In this document: positions 8,171 to 11,956 of the stretch, in pieces
Numbering within the stretch: the first letter of the stretch is position 1
Layout of the letters: each line of letters begins with the position of its first letter
DNA from: Gammaproteobacteria bacterium
Lineage (GTDB): Bacteria; Pseudomonadota; Gammaproteobacteria; Acidithiobacillales; Acidithiobacillaceae
Direction of reading: 5' to 3'
DNA length: 14,766 bases
NCBI GenBank assembly: GCA_023381645.1
Contig: JAMCRJ010000029.1
Coordinates: 1-14,766, forward strand
Notes under the pieces: model-generated
What the model was told of the DNA's origin: nothing
Databases searched by the model: none
The model's input: the letters and a program-made list of their open reading frames with translations, nothing else
Translations under genes and position numbers: made by a program

Positions 8171-8755
8171 CTATTCAGTCGCGGAATTTTCAGCCCCAGA
8201 GCCTGCAAAAGGTGTCTGCGGGAAAAGTCGTTCGCGATAATAAGCGAGTTCGGCAACAGATTCGCGAATGTCGGCCAGTGCTTCGTGTCGCTCGGCCTTG
8301 GAAAATTTGGGCAGGTGTGGATACCAGCGGGCGGCGAGTTCCTTGACGGTGCTCACATCGATCATCCGATAGTGAAAAAAACGTTCCAGCCGCGGCATCA
8401 GGCGGGCTAAAAATCGGCGGTCCTGACATACGCTGTTGCCGCAAATCGGTGATGTGCCGGTGGTAACATGCTGGTGCAGGAAGTCCAGGGTTTGGGTTTC
8501 TGCGGTGGCCATATCCAGGCGGCTGTCGCGGACCCGCTGCAGCAGGCCGGAAGCGCTGTGGGTACGCTGATTCCAGTCATCCAGTGCCGCGAGCACGAAT
8601 TCCGGTTGATGGACGGCCAGTACCGGGCCTTCGCAGAGAATCCGCAGACTATCGTCCGTGACCAGTGTGGCGATTTCCAGAATCTGATCCTGTTCCGGCT
8701 GCAGACCTGTCATCTCCAGGTCGATCCAGATAAGGCGGTGTGCTTTGGGGTCCAT
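8171..8755 (-). CDS. orn: Oligoribonuclease (DEDDh 3'-5' exonuclease)
   Basis: 194 residues. Degrades 2-5-mer RNA to mononucleotides and, in many gammaproteobacteria, hydrolyses pGpG in c-di-GMP turnover. The DEDDh residues are visible: Asp12 and Glu14 in [10 protein letters not shown], Asp112 in [12 protein letters not shown], and His157 with Asp162 in [22 protein letters not shown] and the [14 protein letters not shown] stretch are highly characteristic. The frame is open further upstream, but the ATG at 8755 gives the standard N-terminus ([18 protein letters not shown]) and has AAGGA 7 bases before it. Upstream are the two small-RNA units on the same strand, downstream the luciferase-like operon. 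Confidence 0.97.
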
Positions 8756-8783
8756 GCGGCATCCTTGATGAGCGAATCGGCCT

Positions 8784-8813
8784 AGTATACCATCGCTTCC
8801 TGGACGTAAAAAA
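8784..8813 (-). promoter_or_regulatory. Probable orn promoter
   Basis: A good -10 box TATACT (minus strand, 8789-8784) lies about 30 bases before the orn ATG. A 17-base spacer places the -35 in the T-tract of the preceding small-RNA terminator (TTTTTA), so the terminator tail would double as a poor -35 element. Confidence 0.45.
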
Positions 8814-8834
8814 AGACGGACCAAAGGTCCGTCT
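8808..8834 (-). terminator. Intrinsic terminator of small-RNA unit 1
   Basis: On the minus strand the stem AGACGGACC, loop TTT, and GGTCCGTCT form a perfect 9-bp hairpin followed by a run of seven T. It would also insulate orn from transcription upstream. Confidence 0.88.
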
Positions 8835-8863
8835 AATAGCCGCAAAACAACCGCTACAAAACC
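8808..8863 (-). repeat. 56-bp direct repeat, copy 1 (shared small-RNA 3' domain)
   Basis: Identical over 56 bases to 9072-9127, in the same orientation and offset by 264 bases. On the minus strand it contains GGTTTTGTAGCGGTTG, the near-repeat TTTTGCGGCT, and the terminator hairpin with its T-run. Sequence outside both ends diverges at once. Confidence 0.95.
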
Positions 8864-8969
8864 ATTTCAAACTAAGCACTGCGGCCCTTGGCCGTCAGTG
8901 TGATAAATCCTGTCGGACGATCCCCCATCTTTAGAGACGGGGCTGGGCCTATGGCTCCTCGCCTTAGGG

Positions 8970-9007
8970 TGTAGACTACGGGCCTTTTGTTTCTGGAATA
9001 TTTCCGG
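8970..9007 (-). promoter_or_regulatory. Promoter-like block of small-RNA unit 1
   Basis: The minus strand carries CCGGAAATATTC (9007-8996) and, with the same spacing as unit 2, TCTACACC (from 8975), taken as the -10 region. The first element contains the near-palindrome GGAAATATTCC. The -35 implied by a 17-base spacer (TTCCAG) is a poor sigma-70 match, which suggests an activator or another sigma factor. Confidence 0.5.
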
Positions 9008-9070
9008 CCTAAAATGATTTTCTGAGCCGTATGATGCCGGGACCCACCTGCCGTTTTAAGCCTCGGACAT

Positions 9071-9098
9071 AAAAAAAAGACGGACCAAAGGTCCGTCT
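9071..9098 (-). terminator. Intrinsic terminator of small-RNA unit 2
   Basis: The same perfect 9-bp hairpin (AGACGGACC, TTT, GGTCCGTCT on the minus strand) as unit 1, followed by eight T. Confidence 0.88.
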
Positions 9099-9127
9099 AA
9101 TAGCCGCAAAACAACCGCTACAAAACC
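9072..9127 (-). repeat. 56-bp direct repeat, copy 2 (shared small-RNA 3' domain)
   Basis: The partner of 8808-8863 with no mismatches over 56 bases. Upstream of the terminator it contains an internal near-duplication, GTTTTGtaGCGGTT then GTTTTGCGGCT, and the possible small stem TAGC...GCTA. Confidence 0.95.
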
Positions 9128-9220
9128 CGTATCGCAGCCCGTCTGTCTGACATCTGAGATGGTTTGGACTGCCCGACTTATTCGCTCCGCTCAATCTTTT
9201 GGTTTGGGTACCGATGCTGC
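9072..9220 (-). ncRNA. Candidate small RNA, unit 2 (proximal to the response regulator)
   Basis: A predicted transcript of about 150 bases with the same architecture as unit 1: shared promoter block, a distinct 5' body of about 90 bases, the identical 56-base 3' domain and an intrinsic terminator. The 5' body has a short CATC-TCA-GATG hairpin and a possible long-range pairing ATCG...CCC with GGG...CGAT, but shows little primary-sequence match to unit 1. It is divergent from the response-regulator gene at 9336. The 5' end is estimated from the -10 box. No known RNA family was recognised. Confidence 0.55.
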
Positions 9221-9226
9221 CTGTGG

Positions 9227-9264
9227 TGTATAGTGTATCCATCATATTTCGAGAATATTTCCGG
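9227..9264 (-). promoter_or_regulatory. Promoter-like block of small-RNA unit 2
   Basis: CCGGAAATATTC (9264-9253) and the -10 box TATACA followed by CC (from 9232) are placed exactly as in unit 1: 40 bases from the first C of CCGG to the last C of TACACC in both copies, while the 16 or so bases between them are mostly different. The implied -35 (TTCTCG) is poor. Confidence 0.55.
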
Positions 9265-9287
9265 AAAGCGTCTTCCTGCGGGTTTGG

Positions 9288-9322
9288 TATCCTGATGCAG
9301 GACGGTACCCGTTTTCAGGATA
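9288..9322. promoter_or_regulatory. Inverted repeat ahead of the response regulator
   Basis: TATCCTGA (9288-9295) and TCAGGATA (9315-9322) are perfect inverted 8-mers separated by 19 bases. A third, overlapping half-site makes TCCTG-ATG-CAGGA at 9290-9302. The region is the divergent promoter space between the regulator gene and small-RNA unit 2. It could be an operator, possibly for autoregulation, or a leader hairpin. No convincing -35/-10 pair was found for the regulator gene itself. Confidence 0.4.
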
Positions 9323-9335
9323 TTGTGAGGCTGGG

Positions 9336-10016
9336 ATGGCAGTCGTTTTGATAGTGGATGATGATCGGCGGCTTGCAGAGATGCTGCAGGAGTTTCTTCA
9401 GGCCCAGGGCTTCGCCGTACTGCTCGCGGCCAATGGGCAGCAGATGCGCCAACAACTGGCAGCGGGGCCGGTGGACGTCATCGTGCTGGACTGGATGCTG
9501 CCGGGGCAGGACGGCATCAGCCTCGCCAAAGACCTGCGCAGCAAGGCGGGGCCTCCCATTCTGATGCTGTCTGCACGTGGTGAGGAGGACGAGCGCATTC
9601 TCGGGCTGGAAAGCGGCGTGGATGACTATCTGGCCAAGCCGTTTAACGCGCGGGAGTTGCTGGCGCGGCTGCGGGTGCTGCTACGCCGCAGCGGGAAAGA
9701 TGAGGGCAGCGACAAACTCTGCTTTGGCGATTTCTGTCTGCATGTGGCGGAGAGACGCCTCTATCGGGGGGACGCCGAGGTCGATGTGAATCCTGCAGAG
9801 ATGGACCTGCTCCTGGTCTTTGCACAACGACCACGCCGGATACTCAGCCGCGACTTGTTGCTGCAATTGCTGGGCGGAGAGGAGGATGGCCGTTTTGATC
9901 GCAGTATTGACGTGCGGGTGACGCGCCTGCGCAAGGTGATTGAAGAAAATCCCCGGCAACCCCGTTTTTTGCAGACCGAGCGGGGCGCCGGATACCGCTT
10001 CACTCCGTCCTCATGA
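9336..10016 (+). CDS. OmpR/PhoB-family response regulator
   Basis: 226 residues. An N-terminal receiver domain has the acidic pocket Asp8/Asp9 (LIVDDD), phospho-acceptor Asp52 (VLDWMLP), Ser79 in the Thr/Ser switch position (LMLSARG) and Lys101 (LAKPF). A C-terminal winged-helix DNA-binding domain follows from about residue 130 and ends with the typical SIDVRVTRLRKVIEENP and QTERGAGYRF. The layout and the EnvZ-like partner place it with the OmpR type. The ATG has TGAGG 5 bases upstream, and the stop overlaps the kinase ATG (ATGA), so the two are translationally coupled. It is divergent from the small-RNA unit at 9072-9220, a natural candidate target. The inducing signal is unknown. Confidence 0.95.
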   Translation: MAVVLIVDDDRRLAEMLQEFLQAQGFAVLLAANGQQMRQQLAAGPVDVIVLDWMLPGQDGISLAKDLRSKAGPPILMLSARGEEDERILGLESGVDDYLAKPFNARELLARLRVLLRRSGKDEGSDKLCFGDFCLHVAERRLYRGDAEVDVNPAEMDLLLVFAQRPRRILSRDLLLQLLGGEEDGRFDRSIDVRVTRLRKVIEENPRQPRFLQTERGAGYRFTPSS

Positions 10017-11308
10017 GTTCGCAGGGTGGGCGCAGATTGTTTTCCCAAACGGCGTGGACCCTGGGGCTGGGTATCGTCGTTCTGCAGGTTCTGACGCTGT
10101 TGATTGTCGTTGCCACGGTGCTGTATCCCTTGGCGGAACGTTCAGCGGAGGACCTCGCCGGATTGATTGTGATCAGCGCGAAAACCTATACAGAACTGTC
10201 ACCTGAAGATCGTCCTGCTTTCTTGACCAGTCTGCGGGCAGATAACGGAATGGAAATTGCCAAACATCTGGATCGTTCGGTATCCCATACCCATGGTCAC
10301 ATCTATAGCTGGCTGCTGAGCCGGGCACTCTCCCGACGCCTGGGTGCGCCCGCTGCCGTCTATGTGCTGGGAGGAAGTACCCATACCTTCTGGGTACCCG
10401 TTCCCATCGGCGGACACAATATCTGGGTATATTTTGATCGTCGACGCCTTGTCTCCTCCCTCCCCGTCGCCATGATTTTTGTGATTGTTTTTTCCACGCT
10501 GGCGTTGTTGGTACTGACCATGATTCTGGTACGCCGGGTCTTGCGGCCTTTGGAGGTGATTTCGGAAGCCTTGCGCGGATCGCTGAAGGCCCCTCTGCCG
10601 AGTCTGCCCCATGGTGGTGCTTATGAGTTCCAGAACATCCTCAACATCTTCGCCAACCTGCGAACCCGTTTGCAGGCGATGATCAACCATCAGTCGTTGC
10701 TGCTGACCGGAATTTCCCATGATCTGCGTTCGCCGCTGGCTCGTCTGCGCATGGCCTGGGAGCTGCTGCCGGACAACACCCCGCAGCACCTGCGGGAAGG
10801 TATGCTGCAGGATATCGAGCGGATGGATGCGCTACTGGCCCAATCGCTGGCGTTGGGGCGCGGTATGTCGGCGAAGGTCGCGGATTTTGATCTGATGGTG
10901 TTGCTGGCCGAGGTGGGGGCGGATTTCGAAAGGGAGGGCGGTCACTGGCAGGCGGCTTTACCGCGCCGTTATCCCTTCCGGGGGGATCGGGAGGCGCTGC
11001 GCCGCTTGCTGTCCAACTTGCTGGACAATGCCCTGCGTTACGGCGGCGGGAGGGTGAGGGCGGAGTTCCAGAAAACCCAGGGACGCACTCAGTTGCGCCT
11101 TTGCGATGAGGGGCCAGGGATTCCGGAGGCGGATCTGGAGACCGTTTTTGAGCCTTTTATCCGCCTGGATGACGCACGGGGACATGGGGAGGGCAGCGGC
11201 CTGGGTCTCGCCATCGCCCGCCAGCTCGCAGAGGCACAGGGAATGCGCCTGCGCCTCTTCAATGCTGTCGGCGGTGGGCTCTGCGCGGAATTGTCCTGGC
11301 CCGCATGA
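10013..11308 (+). CDS. EnvZ-like sensor histidine kinase
   Basis: 431 residues. Two transmembrane helices (about 17-38 and 150-172) flank a periplasmic sensor loop of about 110 residues. Then come a HAMP linker (RRVLRPLEVISEAL), the dimerisation domain with phospho-acceptor His236 in GISHDLRSPLARLRMAW, and the catalytic domain: N box NLLDNALRYG near 335-344, G1 DEGPGIPEADLETVFEPF near 365-382, and G2 GEGSGLGLAIARQLA near 392-406. The SHDLRSPLARLR box resembles EnvZ. The sensor loop carries a histidine cluster SHTHGH (91-96) and HTF at 124-126, possibly relevant to pH or metal sensing. A Slp-type lipoprotein gene follows 111 bases downstream, suggesting an envelope-stress role by analogy. Confidence 0.95.
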   Translation: MSSQGGRRLFSQTAWTLGLGIVVLQVLTLLIVVATVLYPLAERSAEDLAGLIVISAKTYTELSPEDRPAFLTSLRADNGMEIAKHLDRSVSHTHGHIYSWLLSRALSRRLGAPAAVYVLGGSTHTFWVPVPIGGHNIWVYFDRRRLVSSLPVAMIFVIVFSTLALLVLTMILVRRVLRPLEVISEALRGSLKAPLPSLPHGGAYEFQNILNIFANLRTRLQAMINHQSLLLTGISHDLRSPLARLRMAWELLPDNTPQHLREGMLQDIERMDALLAQSLALGRGMSAKVADFDLMVLLAEVGADFEREGGHWQAALPRRYPFRGDREALRRLLSNLLDNALRYGGGRVRAEFQKTQGRTQLRLCDEGPGIPEADLETVFEPFIRLDDARGHGEGSGLGLAIARQLAEAQGMRLRLFNAVGGGLCAELSWPA

Positions 11309-11375: not shown

Positions 11376-11419
11376 ATGGTGCTTACCGGTCAACGATGGC
11401 GATGCTGCAGGAGGGTGAA

Positions 11420-11956
11420 ATGAACATGTCGAAGGTCTTGACAGGTATGATCGTCGCGCTGGCTCTTGGGGGGTGCGCGACGGTAACGCCGGTGAGCGGG
11501 CGGTTCCCGTCTGTTACGCCGCTTCAGGCGCAAACAGGGGCGGAAAACGGTAAGCTGGTGCGTTGGGGCGGAACGCTCATCAAAGCGCAGCCGAAGGCTC
11601 AGGAGACGTGCTTTACGGTAATGGCGCTGCCGCTGCGTCAGGATGGACGGCCTTACAAGGGTGAGGGAAGATCAGATGAAGGGCGGTTTATTGCCTGTGC
11701 GCCTGGATTCTACGACCCGGTGCTCTATGCGGCGGGACGGGAGCTTACCTTTGTGGGTACCGTGACCGGGGTGCAGGTCGAAAAGGTCGGTGGGTATGGT
11801 TACCCTTATCCCCAGCTGCAGGCCAGCACGGTATATTTATGGCCAGTGGTGGTACCGGAACCCGCCACGAGTACGGTGTTCATCAACGGCGGTTGGTACG
11901 GCGGGCCGTGGGGACCGTGGGGGCCGTGGGGACCCTGGGGGCCATGGGGTTGGTGA
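11420..11956 (+). CDS. slp: Slp-family outer-membrane lipoprotein with Gly-Pro-Trp repeat tail
   Basis: 178 residues. A short signal peptide with lipobox LALGGC predicts lipidation at the Cys of GGCATVTPVSG, with outer-membrane sorting because Ala, not Asp, follows Cys. The body fits the Slp family (carbon-starvation/acid-inducible lipoprotein): LVRWGGTLIK, RFIACAPGFYDPVLYAAGRELTFVGTVTG, VGGYGYPYPQLQASTVYLW. After the domain comes a low-complexity tail with five GPW units, ending GWG-like. The first ATG with AGGAGG 5 bases upstream is chosen; a second ATG lies two codons on. The function of Slp is not well defined; it is tied to stationary phase and acid stress in enterics. Its position after the EnvZ-like kinase makes it a candidate member of that regulon. 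Confidence 0.9.
   Translation: MNMSKVLTGMIVALALGGCATVTPVSGRFPSVTPLQAQTGAENGKLVRWGGTLIKAQPKAQETCFTVMALPLRQDGRPYKGEGRSDEGRFIACAPGFYDPVLYAAGRELTFVGTVTGVQVEKVGGYGYPYPQLQASTVYLWPVVVPEPATSTVFINGGWYGGPWGPWGPWGPWGPWGW
11903..11947 (+). repeat. 9-bp tandem repeat encoding (Gly-Pro-Trp)x5
   Basis: Five in-frame units GG[G/A]-CC[G/C/A]-TGG at the 3' end of slp, with alternating GGG/GGA first codons, followed by Gly-Trp and the stop codon. Confidence 0.95.

Follow-up and report, generated by a model that had tools for sequence, protein, structure and literature searches.

Tandem predicted sibling small RNAs beside an OmpR-type response regulator gene in the family of Acidithiobacillus

The closest described counterparts of the locus reported here are OmrA and OmrB, enterobacterial tandem sibling small RNAs (sRNAs) that are activated by EnvZ/OmpR and depend on Hfq (PMC4211561). 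The PrrF1/2, AbcR1/2, Qrr and RyhB-like siblings likewise come in few, partly redundant copies that are sometimes tandem (PMC4211561). Regarding Acidithiobacillus, one study presents EnvZ-OmpR of Acidithiobacillus caldus as an osmoregulator (PMC9861516), and another reports that no Csr-family sRNA was found in A. caldus and cites work in which an E. coli hfq deletion is complemented by A. caldus Hfq (PMC13029372). Among the matches listed in the open PMC literature, which holds few subscription journals, there was no description in Acidithiobacillus of RNAs like those presented below. A conference paper has reportedly predicted sRNAs in A. ferrooxidans.

The window, i.e., the whole stretch of 14,766 nucleotides that was analyzed, belongs to a genome having 37% of sampled words in common with the closest genome compared. 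As an earlier note on this DNA had stated, 580 bases separate orn (oligoribonuclease; 8171-8755, minus strand) from a divergent OmpR-family response regulator (RR) gene (9336-10016, plus strand), and this intergenic span contains two minus-strand units, each with a common promoter block, a 5' body of its own and an identical 56-nt 3' end. The tandem arrangement with kept spacing that the note described was recovered in full, since the 3' ends (8808-8863 and 9072-9127) are 100% identical at a pitch of 264 nt, and the promoter blocks (18 nt; 8990-9007 and 9247-9264) are 89% identical. As a sequence feature, an exact repeat of 56 nt at such a kept spacing is not a product of chance. Two perfect 9-bp terminator hairpins with T-runs, also described previously, were found on the minus strand (9071-9098 in unit 1 and 8808-8834 in unit 2), and positions 8700-9400 hold five terminator-like sites against a shuffle mean of 0.6. 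With 5' ends inferred from the -10 elements, unit 1 is a predicted sRNA of about 155 nt (9071-9226) and unit 2 one of about 160 nt (8808-8969), both on the minus strand, with a core, TTGTTTTGCGGCTATT, at 9099-9114 and 8835-8850, respectively, next to the terminator. The view of the pair as paralogous units resembling sRNAs, each with a promoter and a terminator of its own, is supported as a prediction.

The absence of a recognizable RNA family, asserted in the earlier note, agrees with Rfam, which at gathering score returned only two tRNAs in the window. At E<=10, ten matches were obtained in 8750-9340 (Bp1_162, sX14, GadY, TarB, and others), all far under their gathering scores and judged to be chance; no Omr match appeared at gathering score in the window or at E<=10 in 8750-9340. 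The likeness to OmrA/OmrB consists of tandem paralogous sRNAs with similar ends and an OmpR/EnvZ-type link (PMC4211561). OmrA and OmrB, however, share a seed-carrying 5' stretch of 21 nt, a feature absent here, where the bodies are as dissimilar as shuffled sequence; in this locus it is the promoter and the 3' end that are shared, the RNAs have about double the length, and the divergent neighbor is the RR gene itself. Activation by an OmpR-type regulator, as in OmrA/OmrB, would fit the operator layout and the adjacency of the RR. OmrA/OmrB are the nearest working analogue, and the present RNAs may work alike without being of the same family. In contrast to PrrF1/2, AbcR1/2, Qrr, and RyhB-like siblings, the RNAs described here have no Rfam match, their invariant part abuts the terminator, and free copies of the core occur at the 3' ends of other genes. 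The best reading is that they form an undescribed family of sibling sRNAs.

The promoter block belongs to an operator-like direct repeat with a pitch of 11 bp, in which 7/7 bases agree in unit 1 (GAAATAT-N4-GAAATAT, 9241-9262, minus strand, occupying the -35 position) and 5/7 in unit 2 (GAAATAT-N4-GAAACAA, 8984-9005, minus strand). Throughout the units, the seven-base repeats match 5.87/7 at pitch 11, against 3.02 or fewer at every other pitch from 8 to 14, a result that is mainly descriptive because the units had been picked with a motif containing the repeat. The -10 pattern (A at position 2 and T at position 6), which was outside that motif, occurs at fixed spacing in 52/53 units, and the putative -10 elements of the window are CACTAT (9230-9235, unit 1) and TAGTCT (8973-8978, unit 2), on the minus strand. 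These 53 units comprise 51 from family genomes and the two of the window; G011_1, whose operator is removed by a contig break, and the unit of G041, found later, were left out of the promoter counts, and in the one unit without the pattern, G022_3, the operator seems by eye to have been set one repeat too far. A scan of the array region for sigma-70 -35/-10 pairs gave 0, against 0.5 in shuffles. Promoters activated by PhoB/OmpR-type regulators carry two repeats with 11-bp pitch before the -10 and no -35, and here too a repeat of this pitch replaces the -35 at a fixed distance from the -10. The layout is therefore alike, whereas the repeat sequence (about GAAAYAW-N4-GAAAYA) is distinct from that of this promoter class and the operator is putative.

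The RR is OmpR-type at 227 bits, where the equivalog cut-off is 331. Its likely partner, the kinase encoded after it (10013-11308, plus strand), is closest to EnvZ at 192 bits, with a cut-off of 415. An EnvZ-like kinase accompanies the RR in this genus, and none was seen next to it in those loci of other genera that were examined. An Slp-family outer-membrane lipoprotein gene follows the RR-kinase pair in the window (11396-11956), and in G041 an Slp-family gene lies directly downstream of the RR (L169:2419-2925), with no kinase found beside that RR; this lipoprotein gene is a candidate for co-regulation. The divergent RR probably activates the units, the grounds for this being proximity and operator type only.

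In the search of 29 genomes for GGAAATATTCNNGAAACA with at most one mismatch, 45/49 matches were array promoters, and strong operator-like sites are, on this evidence, nearly confined to the array. Of the four remaining sites, that of G011:C97, close to a contig end, probably represents the absent half of an array that has been split; two more fall within an open frame and within repeat-like DNA, respectively, and the fourth is perhaps upstream of a secreted-protein gene. With at most two mismatches, tallied by hand, 50/124 matches belonged to the array and 74 were outside, against 20 for the reversed pattern; since the outside sites exceed this control, further targets may exist for the RR or for a different regulator that recognizes a similar site. 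Fourteen outside contexts were examined (three with one mismatch), most of which overlap open frames. That excess also speaks for control of the array by a regulator other than the adjacent RR, such as another OmpR-like protein, as do the 4-7 OmpR-model matches per genome in 9/9 genomes searched, some of them outscoring this RR. Moreover, the studied A. caldus EnvZ-OmpR is of the same protein family and bacterial group as the array RR, and its OmpR cloning primer encodes MAKARI and matches G022:C1:62130 and not the array RR, so that the OmpR studied there appears to be a different gene (PMC9861516). Nevertheless, the RR adjoins the array in 26/26 genomes where the contig reaches, and the operator-like sites with one mismatch at most that fall outside the array are only four in 29 genomes, which makes control by another regulator fairly unlikely.

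The further units that the earlier note had suggested seeking in related genomes do exist. The array is present in 28/29 family genomes, with 53 units at one to three per genome (one in 8, two in 15, and three in 5 genomes; the single-unit array of G016 begins at a contig end). It is flanked by orn, which lies downstream, in 28/28 array genomes, and by the RR in 26/28, the contig ending in the other two. G042 (61% complete) yielded neither core nor RR match at E<=1e-60. Units were recognized mostly via the core, and a core-less unit could be missed; the G041 unit, detected through its operator, carries the 13-mer of the core too. A DNA search of 40 relatives gave matches in 25, every one from one family, and none in 15/15 relatives outside it.

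A covariance model of the 3' end (R2), run on 229 class genomes with strict filters that lose weak matches, had matches in 20 genomes. The family was seen in G001 only (80.6 and 78.3 bits), and the other 19 genomes gave 20 matches, all at or below 33.5 bits. Inspection of six weak matches spanning the full model provided no convincing homologue in the 228 other class genomes, and the other 14 weak matches begin at model position 22 or beyond. L238 and L245 were rejected as they overlap open frames, and L237, L241, and L244 as terminators preceded by another, mutually shared sequence. This sequence, TCCTCCTTTGGTGGTT, found before those terminators in three other class genomes, looks like an unrelated conserved element; in L244, the frame shortly after it is presumably ribosomal-protein-L13-like. 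At L239:1501-1557, a gene-end terminator is preceded by the partly core-like TTTTTTTGCAGCTAT (28.8 bits). A further model, R1, was set aside because dispersed copies of the core spoiled its automatic structure. In these searches, the predicted sRNA family was found only in the family of Acidithiobacillus.

The constancy of orn as a neighbor raises the question of whether the last unit could be a cis-acting leader or attenuator of that gene and not a separate sRNA. It precedes orn on the same strand in every array genome, and in the window 52 nt lie between the end of its terminator and the start of orn; yet the upstream units too have operator, -10, and terminator, and core copies exist far from orn. 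In G043, furthermore, two units stand 4.5 kb apart (L155) with several ORFs between them, one by the RR and the other by orn, and hence one of them is far from orn. An extended -10-like TGGTATACT (hexamer at 8784-8789, minus strand) is located between the last terminator and orn, from which orn probably has its own promoter. A leader function of this kind is very unlikely.

Alignments A1 and A2 comprised 41 and 33 distinct sequences, respectively, of 63 listed, the remainder being duplicates or near-duplicates. Thirteen adjacent columns, UUUUGCGGCUAUU, show no variation among 33 distinct array sequences, and these bases are the same in all units recognized. The terminator stem displays compensatory change in 4/8 pairs (20 cells) and is 98.9% paired against 26-61% when slid, these slid controls removing relatedness, which shuffles do not; further pair types (7 against 6.9 in shuffles) are not above expectation. 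A possible hairpin inside the core was rejected as a conserved structure, with compensatory change in 0/7 pairs and 28/287 cells unpaired, and the core is therefore conserved as sequence. It is a candidate seed or a candidate Hfq site. Upstream, GGCUGCGA (9132-9139) and GGCCGCAG (8879-8886), on the minus strand, can pair with the core's UUGCGGCU in both units; such pairing, which hardly varies in the type-2 alignment, could mask the core and act as a possible masking or switch element.

Regarding the bodies, those of the window measure 95 and 102 nt and are 50% identical, within the 46-56% of ten shuffles, so that each unit does have a body of its own, as the earlier note held. Its description of the bodies as variable stands for this pair and is incomplete for the family, where an element CCCAaacc...GGAGCG recurs in most long units, and where two orthologous body types are conserved in Acidithiobacillus, being 73% identical within type across genomes and 55% between types. 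The bodies can thus be regarded as two old, separately conserved lineages, and the higher identity within type than between types indicates that the duplication predates these species. Local hairpins are predicted in both types. Covariation in the bodies, which the note had proposed to look for, was seen in part: a middle hairpin of the units from other genera shows compensatory changes, yet broken pairs too. In five genomes of two other genera, the RR-proximal unit measures only 88-99 nt from its assumed start and retains little beyond hairpin, core, and terminator. Both units have identical terminators in 7/13 Acidithiobacillus genomes against a permuted mean of 2.4, and 7 of 20000 permutations, which ignore phylogeny, reach seven such genomes. 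Identical 3' ends in spite of a duplication older than the species suggest that the 3' ends have been homogenized between copies.

Which part of the RNA would find targets is the point on which readings differ most. The earlier note took the constant 3' end for a mere scaffold, with the bodies doing the targeting, and the view of the core as a stabilizing or Hfq-binding scaffold, the divergent 5' bodies carrying the seeds, has several points on its side. A U-rich stretch and a T-tailed terminator are the usual make-up of an Hfq module, and the core has UUGUUUU beside such a terminator; indeed, the intrinsic terminator with long U tail and the U-rich stretch upstream of it are those of Hfq-dependent sRNAs, and hfq was found in 28/29 family genomes (a set outside which the window's own genome lies), the remaining genome being 69% complete. 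The bodies, in addition, are two conserved orthologous lineages with CCCAaacc...GGAGCG in most long units, and seven genomes show no enrichment of core complements. Against this, U-rich Hfq sites need less specificity than thirteen invariant bases that include GCGGCUAUU, in five genomes the short units next to the RR retain the core and hardly any body, and the pairing of the core hairpin has no compensatory upkeep. The claim of a mere scaffold is not supported in this form, since what is conserved in the 13 invariant nt is their sequence, which is also found ahead of unrelated terminators; a shared seed would account for the core at least equally well. We consider the scaffold reading possible, and the less probable of the two; the core is preferred as a common seed because its 13-nt invariance, GCGGCUAUU included, exceeds what a U-rich chaperone site needs and because the core moves between terminators.

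Searches for targets were negative on the whole. A 14-mer complement of the core with up to two mismatches gave 262 matches in seven genomes, a figure that includes 21 core copies, and its reversed pattern gave 252; only G010 exceeded its control (66 against 44); the contexts of 20 of 30 non-array matches in G015 were viewed, among the matches listed. With a 17-mer complement, exact and one-mismatch matches were array and dispersed copies only, and at two mismatches there were 20 against 33 in the control. The Shine-Dalgarno site of hldD complements the core by 12 bp, intact in 4/28 hldD loci and with one change in three more, the intact complement being confined to the nearest relatives. TATSATA stands before hldD in most loci (L208-L235) and is a possible -10 of that gene. 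As a conserved target hldD was rejected, since the site is intact in only 4/28 loci and the TATSATA before it looks like a -10. Duplex energies against the starts of 12 window genes (36 comparisons) included none that was significant, and target prediction with the bodies, as the earlier note had advised, brought no support, the strongest duplexes being those of the unit-2 body with the RR leader (z -2.9) and of the core with a luciferase-like gene (z -2.6).

The exact 13-mer TTTTGCGGCTATT occurs 68 times in the 29 family genomes: 53 in the array, six as core and terminator elsewhere, and nine without terminator by eye, mostly inside open frames, which equals the nine of the reversed-pattern control. 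These figures bear out the earlier note in that the block is not a scattered repeat. Altogether, eight core copies were located off-array in seven genomes (L141, L142, L143, L144, L145, L146, L153, and L154), six exact over the 16-mer and two with one change (L153 and L154). Each directly precedes a terminator of unrelated sequence at the 3' end of another gene, and the operator search of 29 genomes showed no match beside them. Immediately upstream lie ssb, in two genera, a gene for a sigma-70-type factor, and genes whose products have no Pfam match; the upstream frame of L144, L145, and L153 stops at the TAG of TAGCGG.

Six of these surroundings were taken at 20 kb and selected proteins compared, with phage or transfer relatives among them in five: integrase, phage replication initiation, and DNA methylase in L283; anti-repressor and replication initiation in L280; anti-repressor in L282; TraG in L284; and a transposase domain in L281. 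In L279, a DUF5131/phage family occurs with a secretin, for which reason its mobile nature is uncertain. L153, which has a cytosine methylase, and L154 were viewed in short stretches only. Several dispersed cores therefore seem to sit in prophage-like or conjugative-element-like regions. A search of plasmids with the region gave no match, and one with a 35-nt core query gave three records with partial matches (E 1-4); a phage search with the core gave 67 records, partial, with E-values of 4 among the matches listed, and an exact 20-mer had 0 matches in IMG/VR.

Such copies, together with the identical tandem copies of the array, would be expected of a mobile MITE-like repeat that happens to carry a promoter and a terminator. 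However, no full unit was found elsewhere in 29 genomes, the dispersed copies are core only, with unrelated terminators and no operator match beside them, and the array has a conserved position and compensatory changes; a MITE-like origin is, in our opinion, extremely improbable. We tentatively propose, as a rather unlikely possibility, that the core is a transferable regulatory word, in which mobile-element-like regions would have placed the 20-nt sequence, with their own terminators, at the 3' ends of their genes, ssb and a sigma factor gene among them; the 3' UTRs of these genes, or sRNAs cut from them, would imitate the host siblings and tap or saturate the RR-sRNA circuit. Sibling sRNAs are a known kind of regulator, and the core copies in mobile elements are the part that could be new.

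Taken together, we favor, with a probability of roughly two in three, the reading of this region as two sibling trans-acting sRNAs, most likely activated by the RR, with the core as Hfq contact and/or common seed and the bodies adding sibling-specific control. A signal would lead to phosphorylated RR, which would bind at both repeats and have both RNAs transcribed from their own promoters; Hfq would load at the U-rich 3' end, followed by target pairing. With a common core seed, the siblings would share a target set, to which the 5' bodies would add control specific to each. Anatomy, conservation, terminator covariation, operator layout, the near confinement of near-exact operators to the array, and the presence of hfq are observed, and upon them transcription, RR binding, Hfq binding, and pairing targets are inferred.

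Acidithiobacillus is used in biomining and has hfq, and the array offers a defined sRNA-regulator module in these bacteria. What is unusual is that an invariant 3' core, apparently homogenized between copies, is attached to 5' bodies that are each conserved separately, and that this core also appears on foreign terminators in regions resembling mobile elements. Should the core be a seed, the working part of a host sRNA is being copied by mobile elements, and, if the reading as a transferable word is true, this would be mimicry of the active part of a host sRNA and not of its target.
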